From contig NZ_JACJQB010000011.1 in assembly GCF_014696385.1 (NCBI RefSeq), forward strand, positions 23,858-87,857: a stretch of 64,000 bases of DNA, in the 5' to 3' direction. A program made the translations under genes and the position numbers. How positions within the stretch are numbered: position 1 is the first letter of the stretch; each line of letters begins with the position of its first letter. The DNA is from Pseudanabaena mucicola FACHB-723. Lineage in GTDB: Bacteria > Cyanobacteriota > Cyanobacteriia > Pseudanabaenales > Pseudanabaenaceae. The notes under the pieces are model-generated. The model searched no databases. It was not told the DNA's origin and saw only the letters and a program-made list of their open reading frames with translations. Below, piece by piece: positions 55,881 to 64,000 of the stretch.

Positions 55881-55916
55881 AAAACTATTCAAAAATCTGG
55901 GGTATTAGAAAGGAAA

Positions 55917-56043
55917 ACTCTGGCAAATAACAATTTTATAACGGTTGTTGTTGGGCATGAGTTCTAAGTCCGCACTTGTCCAGAGTAGTTTTTCTTCTGG
56001 AGAATTATTGGAGAGGAGTGGGAAGTTCGATCGCTTGAGCCAT
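55917..56043 (-). pseudogene. Truncated Uma2-family gene relic
   Basis: The minus strand starts with an ATG (MAQAIELPTPLQ, then a stop) and, after a frame change, reads SPEEKLLWTSADLELMPNNN, the typical Uma2 opening (ELPTP...FTSADLELMPD). Only this N-terminal part remains. Its leader (ATTACGATATCGCTCATCGTAGG) and the trailing CCAGAGTTTTCCT segment recur at 62697-62526. It fills most of the 310-bp space before the HipA-like gene. Confidence 0.7.
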
Positions 56044-56202
56044 GATGGAGTCCTACGATGAGCGATATCGTAATAGTATAACAATCGGTAAGAAGCACGA
56101 ACTAGGCGATTGGCTACTAACCAGCCCCTAGGGTATTATTCTAGGAGATAATACTGATGAAGTTCAGTAAGTCTAAGCCGATGGCTAGGTGTAGTAGTTT
56201 GG

Positions 56203-56976
56203 ATGAGTAATCGGTTTCAAATTATTGAGGTTCCAGAGGATGCGGCTGAGTCTGAAGAGGCTATGGGTAGTAAATTCAAATTTTGGTTTAAACATCCAGA
56301 TTTAGGTAAATGTCTTTTTAAACAGGTTCGTCCTGATACGGGTGAAGATTGGTCTGAAAAAGTTGCTGCTGAACTTGCTGAATTATTAGGCTTACCCCAT
56401 GCAAACTATGAACTAGCTACTTGGCAAAACCGTAATGGGGTGATTGCAACTAATTTTTTGTCAAAGGATACAGCACTGGTTCATGGTAACGATATTCTTG
56501 GGGGGATGGTATCGAGTTATCCTAGAGATGGAACCTATAAAGCATCTCAGCATACGTTAACTATTGTTCTTGATGCATTGAAAAGCTTAGGTTTGAGGAT
56601 TCCCCTTGATTGGAATCCACCCACAGGAATTGATGCTGCTGTATCTGTATTTGTGGGTTATTTGCTTTTAGATGCATGGATTAGCAATGGCGATCGCCAT
56701 CATGAGAATTGGGGATTTGTGATTAAACTGCCAGAGGGGATACCGCACCTAGCCCCAACTTACGATCATGCTGCTTGTTTGGGGCGAGAGTTGCTAGATG
56801 TAAAGCGCCAAAACTATTTACGGAGTCAAACTGTTAAAAGTTATGTCGAGAAATCAAGGTCTGCGATGTACCGTGACTCTAGCGATCGCAAGCCAATGCT
56901 GACCTTTGATTTGTTTCAGGCGATCGCCAAGAAATATTCAATATCAGCGAAAATATGGTTAGACCAACTAGCCTAA
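56203..56976 (+). CDS. HipA-like kinase domain protein interrupted by an in-frame stop
   Basis: The 257-residue product is a HipA-like Ser/Thr kinase: a lysine in CLFKQVRPD (about 40), the catalytic NGDRHHENWGF near 162-172 and a metal-site TYDHA at 186-190. The TAA at 56974 is followed in the same frame by 39 codons (VPIQDVESIFRQIPEHRISP...) up to a TAA at 57094, a natural-looking C-terminus. The original protein was probably 297 residues. A HIRAN-domain gene starts at 57105 on the same strand. Confidence 0.8.
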   Translation: MSNRFQIIEVPEDAAESEEAMGSKFKFWFKHPDLGKCLFKQVRPDTGEDWSEKVAAELAELLGLPHANYELATWQNRNGVIATNFLSKDTALVHGNDILGGMVSSYPRDGTYKASQHTLTIVLDALKSLGLRIPLDWNPPTGIDAAVSVFVGYLLLDAWISNGDRHHENWGFVIKLPEGIPHLAPTYDHAACLGRELLDVKRQNYLRSQTVKSYVEKSRSAMYRDSSDRKPMLTFDLFQAIAKKYSISAKIWLDQLA

Positions 56977-57104: not shown

Positions 57105-57869
57105 TTGGTATTGAAAACTCTATTTTTAGCTTGGCAAGATTCAATCACCCGTACTTGGTTTCCTGTGGGAAAGCTGACCCATGAAGATGGGATGTATCAC
57201 TTTGTCTATATTCAGGGTGCGAGAAAAGCTGAAAAAGAGGCTAATTTTCAACCGATCTGGTCTTTTCCTGATTTTGACCATCACTATACTTCGCCTGAAC
57301 TTTTCCCTCTGTTTGCCAATCGTCTGCTAAAGCGATCGCGTCCTGACTATCAAGATTTTGTGCAGTGGTTAAATATTCCTGCTCACCAAGATGATCCGAT
57401 CGCTTTGTTGGCGCGTAGTGGTGGTAAGCGTCAGACTGATAGCTTTGAGGTGTTTCCTTGTCCTGAGCGTGATGAAAATGGGGTTTATCATGTTCACTTT
57501 TTCGCGCATGGTTTAAGACATTTTCCTAGTGATGTTGAACAATATGTGCGAACTTTGGAAGTGGGGACAAGGTTACTGATTACCCATGATGTTCAAAACG
57601 AGTTTGACTCACGGGCTTTGATTTTACGCACTGAGGATTTACATTTTGTGGGCTATTGTCCGCGTTATTTTACTCAAGATTTTTTTGAGTTGGTTTGCGA
57701 TCGCCCTCAGAATGTTAAGGTCACTGTTGAGCGTGTAAATTTGCCACCAACGCCAGTACAATTTCGTTTGCTATGCAGTCTCACGGCTAAATGGTCAGAT
57801 GATTTTCATCCATTCTCTGACCCAGTTTTTCAGGAGCTTAGTAAGGCTTTAGCGATTTATTATGCGTAA
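57105..57869 (+). CDS. HIRAN-domain protein with HipA-N-like region
   Basis: The 254-residue protein begins at a TTG (57105; an alternative TTG is at 57111). Residues 15-45 (TRTWFPVGKLTHEDGMYHF) resemble the HipA N-terminal subdomain, and 120-235 a HIRAN-type fold (FFAHGLRHFPSD, NEFDSRALIL, HFVGYCPRYF), a fold linked to DNA ends and branch points in eukaryotic helicases. It lies 8 bp downstream of the restored HipA frame. Together they form a two-gene unit; the partition of HipA features between two proteins is reminiscent of HipST systems (inference). Confidence 0.75.
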   Translation: MVLKTLFLAWQDSITRTWFPVGKLTHEDGMYHFVYIQGARKAEKEANFQPIWSFPDFDHHYTSPELFPLFANRLLKRSRPDYQDFVQWLNIPAHQDDPIALLARSGGKRQTDSFEVFPCPERDENGVYHVHFFAHGLRHFPSDVEQYVRTLEVGTRLLITHDVQNEFDSRALILRTEDLHFVGYCPRYFTQDFFELVCDRPQNVKVTVERVNLPPTPVQFRLLCSLTAKWSDDFHPFSDPVFQELSKALAIYYA

Positions 57870-57872
57870 GTC

Positions 57873-60800
57873 CTATTCCTTTTTCCTTTCTACTTTTTCC
57901 TTACCCCAGACGTACTTGCGGCAGACCTCACAGGCTGATCGCGCCAGATCATCGGTGGGATTTTTGAAAACGGGATGGTAGCGCAATCGGTTACAGCATA
58001 CCTCTAGCCAGTCATACCAATCGCCACCTTGCCACAATTGCAGTGTCATATCATCACTACCAAAGGCGATGTACTTGCCATCAGGACTGAAAGTCACTGA
58101 TCTCACAAAGCCTAGATGCCCTTGAAAAGGTTGTCCAATTTGATTGCCACTTAAGTCCCATAGCCGTAGGGTGTTGTCGGAACTGCCAGAAATGATGTGC
58201 TTGCTATTAGGACTAAACGCTACTGATAAAACCCCGTTCTTATGCCCTTGAAAAGGCTGTCCAATTTGATTACCATTTAAGTCCCATAGGCGTAGTGTAT
58301 TGTCGGAGCTACCAGAGACAATGTATTGACCGTCAGGACTAAATGCAACCGACATAATCCAATGCTCATGTCCTATGAAAGGTTGTCCAATCTGATTACT
58401 GCTTAAGTCCCACAGGCATAGTGTATTGTCGGAGCCACCAGACACAATGTAATTACCGTCAGGGCTAAATGCAACTGACATAACCCAAGACATTTCATTC
58501 TCATGTTTAAATTTGGCAACTTCTTTTCCATTTAAATTCCATAGATAGAAAACATTATGATAACAGCTAGATAAAATATGTAATCCATCGGGACTAAATG
58601 CCAATGAATTAACAAAATGTTCATGTGCTTGGAACGTTTGACTGGTTTGTTCACCATCTAAATCTAGTAAAATTAGTGCTTTGTCATCATTACTACTGAC
58701 AATATATTTCCCATCTGGGCTAACTGCATAAACTGGGCTGTGATTTACAAAATTTCTGGTAACCCGATTATTATATAAGTCCCAATATTTTATAGTTTTG
58801 TCATCACTACTTGAGAAGAGATGTTTACCATCAGGACTGAACTCTACTTTTCTAATATACCCTCTATGCTCATTATAAGAGCTTAGTTTCTGGACTCCTT
58901 CAACAATCCAAATGCGAATTGATGTGTCATGACTGCCAGATACAATATATTTTCCATCAGGACTAAATGCTACAGACCAGATAAAACTAGTATGTCCTTG
59001 AAATGGCTGTCCAATTTGATTTCCTTTTAAATCCCACAGACGGATAGTTTTATCATCACTACCAGATGCAATGTGTTTCCCATCAGGACTGAAGGCTACT
59101 GACCAGATACAACTAGTATGTCCTTGAAAAGGTTGACCAATCTGATTTCCTTTTAAATCCCACAGACGAATAGTTTTATCATCACTACCAGATGCAATGT
59201 GTTTCCCATCAGGACTGAAGGCTACTGACCAGATACAACTAGTATGTCCTTGAAAAGGTTGACCAATCTGATTTCCTTTTAAATCCCACAGATGAATAGT
59301 TTTGCCATCACTACTAGATGCAATATATTTTCCATCAGGACTGAATACTACTGATCTTGCGCTAAATTCATGCTCTTGAAAAATTTGCCAAATTTGATTT
59401 CCCTGTAAGTCCCATAAACAGAGAGTTTTATCAAAACCGCCAGAAACAATATATTTTCCATCAGGACTGAAGGCTACTGACCAGATACAACTAGTATGTC
59501 CTTGAAAAGGTTGACCAATCTGATTTCCTTTTAAATCCCATATACAGAGAGTTTTGTCAGTATTGCCAGAAACAATATATTTTCCATCAGGACTAAAGGC
59601 TACAGAATTAACAATACTCTTGCATTGAAAAGATTGACCAACTTGATTCCCTTGTAAATCCCATAAACGAATTGTTCGGTCATCACCACAAGATGCAATA
59701 TATTTGCCGTCAGGACTATATGTAACACACCTAACTAAGAATCGATGTCCATGCCAACAATTTGTTTCCCTTGAAAGCTCAACTAAGGAAAACAACAAGC
59801 TTTTCAACGGTGCAATAATGTCATTTTCTAGATGGTTTAAGTTTTCCCCAATACACTGAATTGTATGAATAGTTGCACTTAAAGGATGAATAGATAGAAA
59901 ATTGATAATTCTAATCGCCTCTTCTCGCAGCTTGAGTTCCGTTAAGTTCCTTTCAATAAATGTGATCTTATCCGTAGAATGTTGTTCGCTAAGATGATAA
60001 TATTCCTGCACCATCGGCGCTAACTCAGGCGCAATTTGTTCCCACTGTTCACGCACCTCTAACATCAACCCATTCGGCAAAAAATAATCCTCATTTTTCC
60101 CCTTACCCATCCATTCCTCAAAAGCATCCTTCACTCGATCGCCCAGTCTTCGCAAATCCCGATCCTGCGATCTCCATACCGCAAACCTTTGCCAACCCTC
60201 CATCATCGCCTCATGCGCCAGATCCACGATCGCCACTCCATTTTCCTCACTCGCCACCAGCAAGCGCCCACTCTTGCCCTCAAGGGACTTCAAAATCCGC
60301 TCAATTTCCTTACGCGCATTCCCATCATCCCCCGCCAAATCCAAAATCACCTGCCGCCGCTCCCGTTGCCGCGTATCCTTCGCATCTTTTCCTGTCCGCA
60401 CCAACTTCAAAAAGATCCGCCGCATCCATTCCTGACCACTTGCCGATTGATTCTTATAGAGTCGATCCGCATGACGATTGAGCGCCCCCTTCAGTCGCTC
60501 CATTTGCCGATATCCATCAAGAGTTAGGCGACGCTGCTGGCGATTTCTATTTTCCCAAAGCTCCTGCAACGCAAACTCCAAAAGCGGCAAACAGTTCGGC
60601 TCCGCTTCGATATCCTGCAAGATCGCATCCAACAAACCATCACTGAGTTGATAGCCCTGAGTTTCCGCAGGCTTAGCAATGGCATCCCTTAGCTCATCCT
60701 CACTCATCCCTGAAATCACCACCATCTGCTCATTCACGATCGCATCCAGATTGGCATAGGTACAGTCCGCCAAAAAATCAATTCTCATTGTCGCCACAAC

Positions 60801-62015
60801 CACAAAATCCGCCCAAAAATCCGCAGTTTGCGTTTGCGCCACATCTACTAACATCTGGATAAATTTGCGCCGCTCAGCCACCTGCGAGCAGACTGTAAAC
60901 ACTTCCTCAAACTGATCGATCACCAACAGGATCGGTTTTGGTAGATCCGCGATCGCCGCGAACAATCCCTCAGTATCAATGCACTGCTCAAATTCAATAA
61001 CATCCGTCCCCGTCTCTTCCAATAGCTCCGCAAAAACATCCTTTAGCTTTTGAATTGGATTTGACCAAGGCTTCATCAACAAAATTCGATGACCTCGCCG
61101 CTTCATCTCAGGAATTAATTTTGCCTTCACCAGCGATGACTTACCACTCCCCGACACCCCCACCACAAACACAAATGGACTCTGCTCAATTTTCAACATC
61201 AAACGCTTAAACGCCGTCTCTCTCCCAAAGAACCATTGCGCCGTTGACTCATCAAACGCATTCAAACCCACATAGGGACAAGTTTCATCAATAACTTTTT
61301 GACTCACAACCTGTCGATAATTGACGATTTCCATCGCTCGACCGTAACCAAGTTGTCGCGGTTCCTGTTGTTTTTGCTTCAGGCAATCGGAAATAAACCC
61401 AAACAAACTACCCGAATTAATTTTGCCCTCATCATTTTGGCGCGATTCCGACAAAGCCTCTAGCAAAGCCCCTGTAAAAATACTGTGGGCTTCCTTCTTC
61501 ATCGCCGCCGCCTCTTCAAAATCTCGGCAAGCCGAAATCAGCAAATAATCCTTATCCGTCTTGTTAAAAGCCGTAAAACTCTCCACGATCGCTTGCAACA
61601 AAGCGCCACTGTGACAGCAATCCAAAAACATTACCAAACTACTCAAAGGCGATCGCGCAATTAAATTATTCAAACCCGCAAAGGGAATCCCATCAGTTAC
61701 GCTTTCCTTCGTTGCTTTACAATCCGATGGCGCTAAATATCCCTGTTTTACGCCACAATCTTCAACCAGTACCCCATGCCCCGTGTAATAGATCAAAACT
61801 TCGCTACCCGTTGCCTGTTCAATTAACAACTGATTTAACTGAGCAAACAAATCAGCCTTAATCAATTTGGGCGTATTCAGCAAAGTTACTTCTTGAAAAT
61901 CACCATGCGATCGCAGCAAATTCGCTACTGACTCCGCATCCCCCAAGGTTTTACTAAGCGGCGATGGTAAATGCTTATATTCAGAAATACCTACTACTAG
62001 TGCATATCTAGCCAT
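57873..62015 (-). CDS. Caspase-like peptidase / STAND NTPase / WD40 repeat protein
   Basis: This 1380-residue protein has an N-terminal caspase-like (C14, orthocaspase) domain with the His in YYTGHG (residue 80) and the Cys in LDCCHSG (134). An STAND-type ATPase follows, with Walker A GVSGSGKSS at about 285 and Walker B ILLVIDQFEEV at 361. After a helical linker, about 14 WD40 repeats run from residue 755 to 1335, enough for two seven-bladed propellers. The end has a Cys-pair CEVCRK. Such multidomain proteins are cyanobacterial cell-death or conflict candidates. Two 126-bp WD40 units are nearly identical (see finding). Confidence 0.93.
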   Translation of the reverse strand: MARYALVVGISEYKHLPSPLSKTLGDAESVANLLRSHGDFQEVTLLNTPKLIKADLFAQLNQLLIEQATGSEVLIYYTGHGVLVEDCGVKQGYLAPSDCKATKESVTDGIPFAGLNNLIARSPLSSLVMFLDCCHSGALLQAIVESFTAFNKTDKDYLLISACRDFEEAAAMKKEAHSIFTGALLEALSESRQNDEGKINSGSLFGFISDCLKQKQQEPRQLGYGRAMEIVNYRQVVSQKVIDETCPYVGLNAFDESTAQWFFGRETAFKRLMLKIEQSPFVFVVGVSGSGKSSLVKAKLIPEMKRRGHRILLMKPWSNPIQKLKDVFAELLEETGTDVIEFEQCIDTEGLFAAIADLPKPILLVIDQFEEVFTVCSQVAERRKFIQMLVDVAQTQTADFWADFVVVATMRIDFLADCTYANLDAIVNEQMVVISGMSEDELRDAIAKPAETQGYQLSDGLLDAILQDIEAEPNCLPLLEFALQELWENRNRQQRRLTLDGYRQMERLKGALNRHADRLYKNQSASGQEWMRRIFLKLVRTGKDAKDTRQRERRQVILDLAGDDGNARKEIERILKSLEGKSGRLLVASEENGVAIVDLAHEAMMEGWQRFAVWRSQDRDLRRLGDRVKDAFEEWMGKGKNEDYFLPNGLMLEVREQWEQIAPELAPMVQEYYHLSEQHSTDKITFIERNLTELKLREEAIRIINFLSIHPLSATIHTIQCIGENLNHLENDIIAPLKSLLFSLVELSRETNCWHGHRFLVRCVTYSPDGKYIASCGDDRTIRLWDLQGNQVGQSFQCKSIVNSVAFSPDGKYIVSGNTDKTLCIWDLKGNQIGQPFQGHTSCIWSVAFSPDGKYIVSGGFDKTLCLWDLQGNQIWQIFQEHEFSARSVVFSPDGKYIASSSDGKTIHLWDLKGNQIGQPFQGHTSCIWSVAFSPDGKHIASGSDDKTIRLWDLKGNQIGQPFQGHTSCIWSVAFSPDGKHIASGSDDKTIRLWDLKGNQIGQPFQGHTSFIWSVAFSPDGKYIVSGSHDTSIRIWIVEGVQKLSSYNEHRGYIRKVEFSPDGKHLFSSSDDKTIKYWDLYNNRVTRNFVNHSPVYAVSPDGKYIVSSNDDKALILLDLDGEQTSQTFQAHEHFVNSLAFSPDGLHILSSCYHNVFYLWNLNGKEVAKFKHENEMSWVMSVAFSPDGNYIVSGGSDNTLCLWDLSSNQIGQPFIGHEHWIMSVAFSPDGQYIVSGSSDNTLRLWDLNGNQIGQPFQGHKNGVLSVAFSPNSKHIISGSSDNTLRLWDLSGNQIGQPFQGHLGFVRSVTFSPDGKYIAFGSDDMTLQLWQGGDWYDWLEVCCNRLRYHPVFKNPTDDLARSACEVCRKYVWGKEKVERKKE

Positions 62016-62094
62016 AACTTACTGATTTATTGCGATCGCGACCTTGTGCAACTAGAATACAGGCAAATCTCACAAAATAGTAGTAACAATTGCT

Positions 62095-62436
62095 ATGGCT
62101 CACAAAATTTACATCGAACAGGAAGATGGCGAAATTCTCGCTATTGAGATCTCTGAATCCGAAGATGAGCAGCCAGTAGATACAGATAGCGATCGGGAAT
62201 CTTACGGAATTAAAGAAGATGCAATCAAAAGTTTGCAAGAGATTCATGAAACGATTCGCTTCTACACAAAATATGCGATCGGTGCATTCAAGAACCTCGG
62301 TGATGCCCAAGTCGAAGAAGTCAACCTCAAATTTGGTTTAAAAATTAGCGGTGAAGCAGGCATTCCCATTCTTACCAAAGCCTCAGCCGAAAGCAATTTT
62401 GAGATTTCAGTCAAATGTAAATTTCCACTAAAATAG
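62095..62436 (+). CDS. Trypco1-like small protein (trypsin-co-occurring domain 1)
   Basis: The 113-residue protein has KIYIEQEDGEILAIEIS, an acidic linker, a helix (IKSLQEIHETIRFYTKYAI) and a terminal beta-sheet part: VEEVNLKFGLKISGEAGIP, then KASAESNFEISVKCKF. That pattern matches the CU044_2847/Trypco1 domain, which is known as an accessory of protease-linked conflict systems. The gene starts 79 bp from the divergent caspase gene, so the two probably share regulation. Confidence 0.82.
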   Translation: MAHKIYIEQEDGEILAIEISESEDEQPVDTDSDRESYGIKEDAIKSLQEIHETIRFYTKYAIGAFKNLGDAQVEEVNLKFGLKISGEAGIPILTKASAESNFEISVKCKFPLK

Positions 62437-62470
62437 ACTAAAAGTAGTAAAACCATAGAACTTACGCAAA

Positions 62471-62494: not shown

Positions 62495-62523
62495 ACGATG
62501 TGTTCTTTTGCCTCAATCCTAAA

Positions 62524-62697
62524 TCACTCAAAAATCTGGGATATCAGACAGGAAAACTCTGGCAAAAGTGGCAATGTGCGGGTGTCTTTGGCAAATAAAG
62601 TCATTGCTAATTTGAAAACCCCATTCTCAGTGGTAGTAACGATCGCTGGAGTCATGATGTTTTCCTACGATGAGCGATATCGTAATAGTATAGCAAC
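62524..62697. repeat. Second copy of the Uma2 leader and tail sequences
   Basis: The ends of this stretch match those of the Uma2 relic region at 55888-56094: TACTATTACGATATCGCTCATCGTAGGA near the start codon, and a CCAGAGTTTTCC-type tail with CAAAAATCTGGG. The middle differs: the minus strand codes a 43-residue frame from 62655 (MTPAIVTTTENGVF) not recognised as a gene. The two stretches bracket 55.9-62.7 kb as direct copies. Confidence 0.6.
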
Positions 62698-62718: not shown

Positions 62719-63267
62719 ATGATTACTCTGGTAACGGGCGCAACTCGCTCAGGCAAAAGTGAATGGGCGGAACATCTGGCATTGCGATCGCAAAAAAATG
62801 TCCAAAAAAATATAATTTATATCGCCACGGCGACTCGTTATCCCGATGACACGGAATGGGAAGCTCGTTTACAGAAACATAGTGATCGTCGTCCTGAGAG
62901 TTGGCAAACTTTGGAAGTTCCCATTGAACTCGCTAAAAGTATTTTGAAAATTGAAGATCAATCAGCATATATTCTGGTGGACTCATTGGGGACTTGGCTA
63001 GCAAACCTTTTGGAAGAAAATGAAGAGTCTTGGGTAAAGATTGAGAATGAATTATTAGAAGCAATTCAAGTCTGTGCAGTCGATATTACATTTGTGTCTG
63101 AAGAGGTGGGATGGGGACTCGTTCCCGAATATAAATTGGGGAGAATATTTCGCGATCGGCTTGGTGGTCTCAGCCGTAAAATTGGCGCGATCGCGGATGT
63201 TGTTTATCTAGTCACAGGTGGTTATGCCGTGGATCTTACGCAAATTGGCGAAAGATTGCCAAATTGA
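62719..63267 (+). CDS. cobU: Adenosylcobinamide kinase / guanylyltransferase
   Basis: CobU phosphorylates adenosylcobinamide and adds GMP, in the late steps of cobalamin assembly. From the ATG at 62719 (MITLVTGATRSGKS) about 182 residues follow. The P-loop GATRSGKSEWAEH is at the start, then IYIATATRYPDD and SEEVGWGLVPEY, which carry the family's active residues. An earlier ATG at 62707 and TTG at 62704 are in frame, but the family begins near 62719. The gene is 1 bp upstream of a palindrome. Confidence 0.92.
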   Translation: MITLVTGATRSGKSEWAEHLALRSQKNVQKNIIYIATATRYPDDTEWEARLQKHSDRRPESWQTLEVPIELAKSILKIEDQSAYILVDSLGTWLANLLEENEESWVKIENELLEAIQVCAVDITFVSEEVGWGLVPEYKLGRIFRDRLGGLSRKIGAIADVVYLVTGGYAVDLTQIGERLPN

Positions 63268-63295
63268 GTAGTGGCAATTCATGAATTGCCACTAC
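63268..63295. repeat. GTAGTGGCAATTCATGAATTGCCACTAC palindrome
   Basis: A perfect 28-bp palindrome begins directly after the cobU stop codon. It contains the same CAATTCATGAATTG core as those at 27018 and 62471. It may act as a weak terminator for cobU. Confidence 0.75.
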
Positions 63296-63311
63296 TTTTC
63301 ATTCTTTATAA

Positions 63312-64000
63312 CTGATGTTACGTGGAAGGAAGAAGGAGTAAAGTAAAGATAGGGTTAGAAATGGGTAAACAGGTATGGACAGGAAATTCTTAGACCTATA
63401 CTCAGATTACCTAATCAGTAGTTTTGAAAAAGTAACGGCAACAGGACTATCCGAGTTACTAGAGGGAGAACTGAGCCATGACCAAATTACAAGTCGGTTG
63501 AGACAATGTACAGGAGGGTCAGTTGAATTATGGCAACTGGTGAAACCGACAATCCGCAAGTATGAAAGCGAAGAAGGGGTGTTAATTTTTGATGACACTC
63601 TGGAACCAAAACCATACAGCGATGAAAACCCCATCGTCGGATGGTACTTTGACCATAGTCATAACCGCAGTATCAAAGGCATAAACATCCTCAACTGCAT
63701 CTACCACAACCAAGACATCAGCTTACCCGTGGCTTATGAAATTGTACACAAGTCGAAAGAAGTAACCGATCCCAAAACAGGAAAGGTCAAATTGGTATCC
63801 GAGGAAAGTAAAAATGAGATGATGCGAAAGATGCTCCATGTCTGCTGCCAGAATCGCTTGAAATTTAGTTATGTATTGACAGATAGTTGGTTCAGCAGGA
63901 AAGAAAATATGCAATACATTAAACAACGAGTCAAAAAAGACTTCATCATGGCTGTGAAGGGTAATCGTTTAGCCATCTGTGCAGACGACAAAAGTCAGGG
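63312..64000 (+). mobile_element. Insertion sequence, right side cut by window
   Basis: A transposase gene starts at 63375 and runs off the window. TAACTGATGTTACGTGG at about 63310-63326 looks like a possible left terminal sequence, but the right end is not visible for comparison, so the boundary is a guess. Confidence 0.55.
63375..64000 (+). CDS. DDE transposase, IS4/IS701-type (partial)
   Basis: The ATG at 63375 opens a frame of 208 codons to the window end: MDRKFLDLYSDYLISSFEKV, then the first catalytic Asp region IFDDTLEPKPY, HNRSIKGINILNCIY and the second Asp in VLTDSWFS. The pattern is that of IS701/IS4-related transposases. The third acidic residue and the C-terminus are beyond the edge. 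No frameshift is seen in the visible part, so the element could be active. Confidence 0.85.
   Translation, partial: MDRKFLDLYSDYLISSFEKVTATGLSELLEGELSHDQITSRLRQCTGGSVELWQLVKPTIRKYESEEGVLIFDDTLEPKPYSDENPIVGWYFDHSHNRSIKGINILNCIYHNQDISLPVAYEIVHKSKEVTDPKTGKVKLVSEESKNEMMRKMLHVCCQNRLKFSYVLTDSWFSRKENMQYIKQRVKKDFIMAVKGNRLAICADDKSQ

Follow-up and report, generated by a model that had tools for sequence, protein, structure and literature searches.

A head-to-head caspase–Trypco1 cassette on a STAND–WD40 sensor protein, a predicted infection-triggered switch of cyanobacteria

Results

In a 64,000-nucleotide stretch of the Pseudanabaena mucicola FACHB-723 genome (contig NZ_JACJQB010000011.1, positions 23,858 to 87,857; hereafter the window, in whose coordinates all positions are given unless a locus is named), a gene encoding a caspase–nSTAND1–WD40 protein lies head to head with a small gene of the Trypco1 family. 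The Trypco1–caspase pairing is conserved, and the caspase domain, the intergenic spacer and the Trypco1 gene form an apparently exchangeable cassette (61307..62437, spanning both strands) with DNA identity to relatives collapsing at both ends. We lean towards the view that this cassette, mounted on a STAND–WD40 sensor, is part of an infection-triggered shutdown switch in which Trypco1 probably serves as a dedicated substrate-like partner of the caspase. Caspase-bearing STAND proteins occur in many cyanobacteria. A partner that stays with the caspase domain through changes of the sensor is an obvious first candidate for what the caspase acts on, and a 1.1-kb block with a putative shared promoter region is small enough for direct testing.

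Architecture of the gene pair

The larger gene (57873..62015, minus strand) is an intact open reading frame (ORF) with an ATG start and encodes 1380 aa. Its N-terminal caspase (Peptidase_C14) domain (61308..62015, minus strand; residues 1–236) scored 71.6 bits against PF00656 in a genome-wide profile search (cut-off 21.4), and its translation contains the motifs YYTGHG at 76 and DCCHS at 132, which include the catalytic His80 and Cys134. The following nSTAND1 NTPase (60090..61277, minus strand; residues 247–642; 346 bits in Pfam) has Walker A (GVSGSGKS at 286) and Walker B (LLVIDQFEE at 363) motifs, also read from the translation. The WD40 region (58011..59741, minus strand; residues ~759–1335) was matched by Pfam in 13 stretches and shows 14 SPDG-type blade motifs upon reading of the translation. 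Adjacent blades are nearly identical in DNA at 59000–59290, pointing to recent blade copying. Walker motifs, caspase dyad and sensor repeats are thus combined in one protein, as in STAND NTPases with a caspase effector, and the catalytic dyad, the Walker motifs and the 14 WD40 units listed by the sequence-only reading, an earlier annotation of this DNA, are all intact as described.

The smaller gene (62095..62436, plus strand) starts with ATG and encodes 113 aa. It belongs to Trypco1 (PF19493, CU044_2847 family), with 75.5 bits against a cut-off of 24.6 and 81.8 against 23 for NF041216, and no other Pfam family was matched by it at E 0.01. The two start codons are separated by a shared divergent spacer of 79 bp (62016..62094). 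The separate Trypco1-type protein and the spacer of this length had both been recognized in the earlier annotation; a frameshift of the small gene, which that annotation named as an argument against its own proposal, was not found, the ORF being open over all 113 aa. The genome contains this one Trypco1 match and two PF00656 matches.

Conservation of the Trypco1–caspase pairing

The Trypco1 and caspase families were searched in 58 genomes (the window's and its relatives; genomes and loci are designated G and L, respectively), and the Trypco1 neighbourhoods were examined. A further, named set of 54 cyanobacterial loci was collected by means of an alignment of close homologues, and is biased to close relatives because short conserved peptides served as queries. 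A local profile yielded 125 Trypco1 ORFs, of which 124, representing 114 distinct sequences, were kept; one (L071) was lost upon resolving ORF overlaps, and the window is counted twice, as itself and as L163. A divergent caspase gene was found within 1 kb of 21 of the 78 Trypco1 Pfam matches (74 recognized ORFs) in the 58 genomes, window included, against a chance expectation of 0.04 calculated from gene counts and genome sizes, and within the same distance of 36 of the 49 ORFs kept from the named set. The two sets together comprise 49 distinct divergent pairs, 30 of them with a gap of 63–95 bp, and three further Trypco1 ORFs (L041, L068, L085) have a co-directional caspase within 3 kb. The divergent pairs fall into ten family codes of the search tool (f1, f3, f6, f9, f13, f19, f21, f23, f24 and f31), and hosts of the named pairs include Pseudanabaena, Nostoc, Anabaena, Hassallia, Scytonema, Brasilonema, Symploca, Spirulina and Phormidesmis. 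In some cases the paired caspase gene is broken or truncated at a contig end (L097, L051), and G014:C17 has one stop.

The association also holds in the reverse direction. The 15 caspase domains most similar to that of the window (at least 107 bits, window included) are all accompanied by a divergent Trypco1, as are 17 of the top 20 (at least 77 bits; exceptions in G057, G052 and G039), and caspase domains of the 58 genomes that score below these are mostly without one. The conserved divergent co-occurrence that the sequence-only reading had proposed as a check is therefore present, and the 14 nearest homologues of the caspase all have the neighbour that, had it been regularly missing, would have spoken against the proposal. 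Both the catalytic His and Cys and an Asp two residues before the catalytic Cys are retained in 47/47 full-length Trypco1-linked caspase domains (window included, two short ones excluded). Furthermore, the distances between caspases and those between Trypco1 proteins correlate with an r of 0.88, a value reached in 0/2000 permutations.

Cassette borders and the shared spacer

Comparison with the nearest relatives delimits the cassette sharply. Between the window and G022 or G005 (L156, L157), DNA identity is 93.9% over 61307–62439 (~1.13 kb), and in 50-bp steps against L156 it drops to 0.52–0.72 on the STAND side and to 0.40–0.54 past the Trypco1 stop. The corresponding values are 89.5% over 61123–62439 for G012 (L110) and 86.3% over 61267–62439 for G013 (L109). 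The inner border thus coincides with the caspase/STAND junction and the outer one lies no more than 3 bp from the Trypco1 stop codon. Behind nearly the same caspase domain, the window protein has nSTAND1–WD40 and that of G012 (named twin L034) has nSTAND1–FGE-sulfatase; the G022 protein, judged by sequence, is likewise of the nSTAND1–FGE-sulfatase type.

The 79-bp spacer is 96.2–98.7% identical in four same-genus relatives, in which the third codon positions are 69–77% (Trypco1) and 73–89% (caspase) identical. In the near clade, the spacer is accordingly the most conserved part of the cassette and under strong constraint; those of Nostoc and others have a sequence different from that of the window and are similar among themselves. 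A promoter-like TTGCGA-17-TAGAAT is present within the spacer at 62030–62058 (plus strand), although such sites are no commoner in the region than in shuffled sequence, and an Rfam search gave no match at the gathering score.

These observations bear on the simplest alternative, namely, that common descent alone keeps the two genes adjacent, in a conserved order and with no joint function. Consistent with it, 47 of the 84 Trypco1 genes of a second set have no protease nearby (the set comprises 84 of ~108 new loci from other genomes, among the matches listed, which are incomplete at the strong end), and caspase linkage requires 14 changes on the best Trypco1 tree, on which many forks are open; in a narrower count, 8 changes are forced by well-supported branches. 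However, the flanks vary between loci while the pair persists, the spacer is 96–99% identical compared with 69–89% for third codon positions, and 21 pairs were found where 0.04 are expected, so that shared descent without joint function is a very improbable explanation.

Diversity of modules behind Trypco1-linked caspases

Scanning 20 of the 49 caspase proteins of the pairs with Pfam revealed a broad range of C-terminal modules. Behind the caspase, nSTAND1 was found combined with WD40, FGE-sulfatase, HisKA/HATPase, a phycobilisome-like domain or pentapeptides, with an NfeD-like part slightly below the cut-off, or with nothing recognized. The modules other than nSTAND1 included NB-ARC with APAF1_C, a STAND-like NTPase with TPR, VMAP-C (in two proteins, L058 and L098, where the next scanned gene is in both cases an AAA ATPase), iSTAND and EAD9. 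Among all 49 paired proteins, 37 match the nSTAND1 region of the window and 18 its WD40 region. The caspases with a linked Trypco1 are thus combined with many different modules, so that Trypco1 tracks the protease domain and not the sensor.

A split version of the system is found at L152 4470–7893 (G020), where Trypco1 and the spacer match those of the window at 91%, the caspase domain is different (44% identity) and the caspase protein ends in EAD9. It is followed by an overlapping, separate EAD9–nSTAND1–FGE gene that is 92.9% identical in DNA to window positions 60111–61288. This arrangement indicates that adaptor logic exists in the network, and it could be argued that Trypco1 is itself an EAD-like adaptor linking the protease to other complexes without a direct catalytic effect, the more so as Trypco domains are termed adapters in PMC10907252. 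Yet the window caspase is already fused to its sensor and needs no adaptor for that coupling, and no fusion of Trypco1 to a sensor or effector was noticed in the loci read, in which no systematic fusion search was made. We consider a pure adaptor role unlikely. The sequence-only reading had taken Trypco1 for an accessory or adaptor of the caspase: the tie to the caspase stands on the divergent co-occurrence, the spacer conservation and the cassette borders, whereas for its role, adaptor, inhibitor and substrate are all candidates, with the linker, described below, leaning towards the substrate-like one.

The FGE domain of the Trypco1-linked protein of G022 ends in a stretch that matches an AAC-rich repeat located elsewhere in the genome. 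The mismatches fall on A of the repeat in 17/22 cases for this FGE domain, in 20/20 for the FGE gene beside the repeat and in 19/25 for a third G022 FGE gene; across species, the values are 14/25 (G005) and 15/22 (G012). The A-biased pattern in G022 is, by its sequence signature, the mark of a diversity-generating retroelement (DGR), although the reverse transcriptase adjoining the repeat is a 144-aa piece only, at 27.6 bits, below the cut-off of 29.6. A DGR-type template repeat with variable regions is seen at L252/L255 (G022) and at L156 11080–11282, and several G022 FGE genes share the variable end. DGR targets have been reported in such conflict systems (PMC10907252).

Trypco1 clades, linker and fold

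In the first set, 26 Trypco1 genes have a trypsin-like neighbour downstream, co-directional in all cases except L106 (convergent). The class of protease is mirrored in position 108 of Trypco1, which is Cys in the window protein (codon 62416..62418, plus strand). In this set, Cys is found in 48/49 caspase-linked proteins and Trp in 23/26 trypsin-linked ones, whereas the 36 proteins with neither protease comprise 29 with Cys and 7 with Trp. The second set gave Cys in 7/7 caspase-linked, Trp in 30/30 trypsin-linked and Cys in 45/47 with neither protease, for combined values of 55/56 Cys (caspase-linked) and 53/56 Trp (trypsin-linked).

The linker of Trypco1 differs between the classes as well, with a mean net charge of −4.85 in caspase-linked and −1.44 in trypsin-linked proteins. 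A typical caspase-linked linker reads DSDRESYG, as in the window, where the Arg34 codon (62194..62196, plus strand) marks a candidate caspase cut or pseudosubstrate site. An Arg or Lys close to the helix is present in 52/55 caspase-linked linkers, compared with 38.2 in shuffled linkers (0/500 as high), and the excess persists upon thinning to <70% identity (23/24; 1/2000) or <60% identity (19/20; 12/2000). Trypsin-linked proteins, with 30/47, show no excess over shuffles. The positioned Arg/Lys in an acidic linker leads us to prefer a substrate-like role over a mere adaptor function; the main rival reading is that of an inhibitor.

In the latter case, Trypco1 would be a stable protease inhibitor or chaperone, antitoxin-like, that binds the caspase domain on its surface and escapes cleavage. 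Upstream gene order is common for antitoxins, and in the trypsin systems Trypco1 is indeed upstream, overlapping the protease gene by 4–41 bp in 12/26; moreover, the strongly conserved Trypco1 residues (Y57, A64, F65, F80, G89 and P91) are located in the helix and hairpin. Against this, an inhibitor would have to fit two unrelated protease folds, a plain surface binder needs no positioned basic residue, yet the caspase-linked forms have one, and many Trypco1 genes stand alone. We regard inhibition without cleavage as less likely than a substrate-like role.

Two AlphaFold2 models of Trypco1, both of low confidence (mean predicted local distance difference test of 62.9 and 57.3), agree in the order strand, strand, linker, helix, strand, strand. 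The last two strands display strict alternation of hydrophobic and polar residues in all classes, a pattern compatible with a membrane hairpin and also with an ordinary sheet packed on the helix. A Foldseek search with the first model yielded nothing significant (best E 0.53); the weak matches include several pore-forming proteins and are not counted as evidence. No solved structural relative of Trypco1 was found (best E 0.21).

In five Pseudanabaena-group genomes (L143, L146, L147, L149 and L108), a Cys-type Trypco1 is located 81–82 bp upstream of a gene encoding 954–961 aa, which in L143, the one scanned, is UvrA. Orphan Trypco1 genes of different families share neighbours, either CobD/CbiB or an amidase (L114, L122; L123, L140).

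Proposed mechanism

Under the substrate-like reading, the WD40 propeller would detect a signal of the invader, upon which the STAND NTPase would oligomerize and gather the caspase domains, as in apoptosome-type STAND proteins. The active caspase might then engage Trypco1 at the Arg/Lys of its acidic, flexible linker and either cut Trypco1, releasing the helix–hairpin part as an effector, or be held blocked by Trypco1 until the sensor fires; in either case, the infected cell would be expected to arrest or die. Trypsins cut after Arg/Lys and are unrelated in fold to orthocaspases. Orthocaspases, in turn, cut after positively charged residues (PMC6426788). With this common preference, one partner family could serve two unrelated protease folds, most simply by presenting a basic residue to the active site. 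By analogy, the nuclease–protease pairs described by Tuck et al. (2025, Science, PMC12799240) are a precedent for a separate pro-effector gene with a protease.

Several observations weigh against this reading. The correlation between caspase and Trypco1 distances owes partly to species history, and the majority of Trypco1 genes have no caspase as neighbour: the second set comprises 7/84 with a caspase neighbour (one of the 7 co-directional), 30 with a trypsin and 47 with neither. The Cys/Trp switch had been considered as repeated evidence of matching to the protease and was rejected: on a tree built without column 108 (a short alignment with many open forks) the residue changes once, so that the switch marks two clades and a single event and provides no independent test. 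The positioned Arg/Lys is also enriched in orphan Trypco1 proteins, more weakly (59/76; 8/500), with the excess still seen after thinning (32/38; 24/2000), and the lack of an excess in trypsin-linked proteins counts against one rule common to both proteases. An invariant cut site at R34 was dropped, position 34 being Arg/Lys in only 26/49 caspase-linked proteins, and the mere presence of any linker Arg/Lys has no power, at 98–100% in the caspase-linked, trypsin-linked and orphan classes alike. The low confidence of the structural models belongs here, too.

A bolder form of the substrate-like reading would make Trypco1 a miniature analogue of gasdermin: a death effector of general use, kept under protease control and unlocked by trypsin-like and caspase-like cuts after a basic residue that free a strictly amphipathic, membrane-acting beta-hairpin. 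We hold this to be improbable; if true, NLR-like sensors of any kind, the DGR-hypervariable ones among them, could take up the caspase–Trypco1 block as a plug-in death module. The favoured substrate-like reading would, for its part, imply an NLR-like system that is re-armed by exchange of entire sensor halves while the protease–partner unit in front of them stays fixed, and would be one way to explain the presence of a single small family beside trypsins as well as caspases.

Relation to known systems

The closest relatives of the pair are the systems after which the family was named: Trypco1 and Trypco2 owe their names to trypsin neighbours (Kaur et al. 2020, eLife, PMC7159879), and the Trypco1–trypsin VMAP ternary and related systems described there have the same small family beside an N-terminal protease. 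The trypsins in the loci examined have VMAP-C, nSTAND1–pentapeptide, NACHT-like modules or EAD9 attached, much like the caspase versions. The window pair differs from these Trypco1–trypsin pairs in having a caspase rather than a trypsin, a divergent rather than co-directional layout and a Trypco1 of the Cys clade; trypsin is not among the families listed for five scanned window proteins, and the neighbour of Trypco1 is the caspase. VMAP-protein caspases have been described with alpha/beta-hydrolases (PMC7159879). The VMAP-C and MoxR/vWA partners of the trypsin systems are absent here, the C-terminal part of the protein being nSTAND1–WD40 and the scanned flanks HIRAN, HipA-like and CobU.

EACC1–caspase systems (System 4, PMC7159879; EACC2, PMC8195603) likewise consist of two genes, with a constant caspase and highly variable C-terminal modules. 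The EACC1 partner is described with a transmembrane helix, whereas the window partner is Trypco1, the only family it matches at E 0.01, and the window caspase scores 89 bits against the EACC1-associated caspase model, for which the cut-off is 140. The nuclease–protease pairs (Canu; PMC12799240) similarly have a separate partner gene that recurs with trypsin–immune fusions or a caspase. That partner is a metallo-beta-lactamase (MBL)-fold nuclease proenzyme of known activity, whereas Trypco1 matched no enzyme family here, and an MBL-fold nuclease is absent among the five scanned window proteins. The orthocaspase and WD40-type STAND proteins of cyanobacteria share with the window protein a caspase domain with an intact dyad, fused to STAND and WD40 regions.

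Pepco (PF24393), whose name we take to stand for peptidase co-occurrence, is a small protein of similar size that is likewise found beside caspases. Among the 150 caspase matches listed, 30 have Pepco nearby, 15 Trypco1 and 105 neither. Pepco is co-directional in 30/30 (29 upstream and one, in G037, downstream) and Trypco1 divergent in 15/15, and none of these 150 caspases has both partners, where 3 would be expected if they were independent. The single Pepco match of the window's genome is located on another contig. Comparison of Trypco1 and Pepco with hhalign gave no firm homology (E 0.043 and 0.11, probabilities ~1%); two Pepco proteins match Trypco1 below the cut-off (P0228, E 0.0019; P0226, E 0.021), and the signs of a relationship between the families are suggestive only. 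A literature search for Pepco–caspase pairing turned up no related paper by title among those listed.

The available text of PMC7159879 and PMC10907252, supplements aside, does not describe the divergent Trypco1–caspase pair. Systems of this general kind are known; what is new, as far as the literature searched, part of it in partial text, extends, is the combination of Trypco1 with a caspase, the divergent arrangement of the two genes and their organization as a cassette.

Genomic island and its site

In the window, the pair is part of a ~6-kb island. The neighbouring genes are PDC-M03A (HipA-like; 56203..56976, plus strand; 334 bits in PADLOC, with PF07804 at 26.8 bits, below the cut-off of 30.5) and PDC-M03B (HIRAN; 57105..57869, plus strand; 319 bits in PADLOC, with PF08797 at 29.1 bits against 24.7), the latter lying tail to tail with the caspase gene with 3 bp between them. 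PDC-M03A, PDC-M03B, the caspase gene and Trypco1 are bracketed by two remnants of one Uma2 gene, the left at 55884..56084 and the right at 62520..62696 (no strand assigned); G002 and G012 have this gene in intact form. The interval from the left flank, presumably thiC by its product, to cobU was compared in nine relatives. It measures 6.8 kb in the window, ~740–780 bp in G002, G015, G004, G014 and G010 and ~900 bp in G005 and G009, and is shorter in G017; the interval holds the Uma2 gene (as an ORF in G002 and G012, with a Pfam match in G002). The island is thus absent at this site in 7/9 relatives compared. Judged from gene content, a defence setting is supported by the adjacent PDC-M03 genes, the absence of the island in relatives and the sister cassette with a DGR-type variable sensor. 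Neither this island nor the use of the cassette with many other sensors had been noted in the sequence-only reading.

In G012, the same site is occupied by a caspase–FGE gene with Pepco upstream of it, beside the intact Uma2 (L291, 3463–5612), so that one chromosomal site is seen with two kinds of caspase–partner module. Uma2, the family broken around the window island, is also the gene divergent from Trypco1 at L055 and L041. Beyond cobU, an ORF that is transposase-like by appearance runs off the end of the window (63261–64000), and a short stretch at ~63261–63290 recurs many times in this and related genomes.

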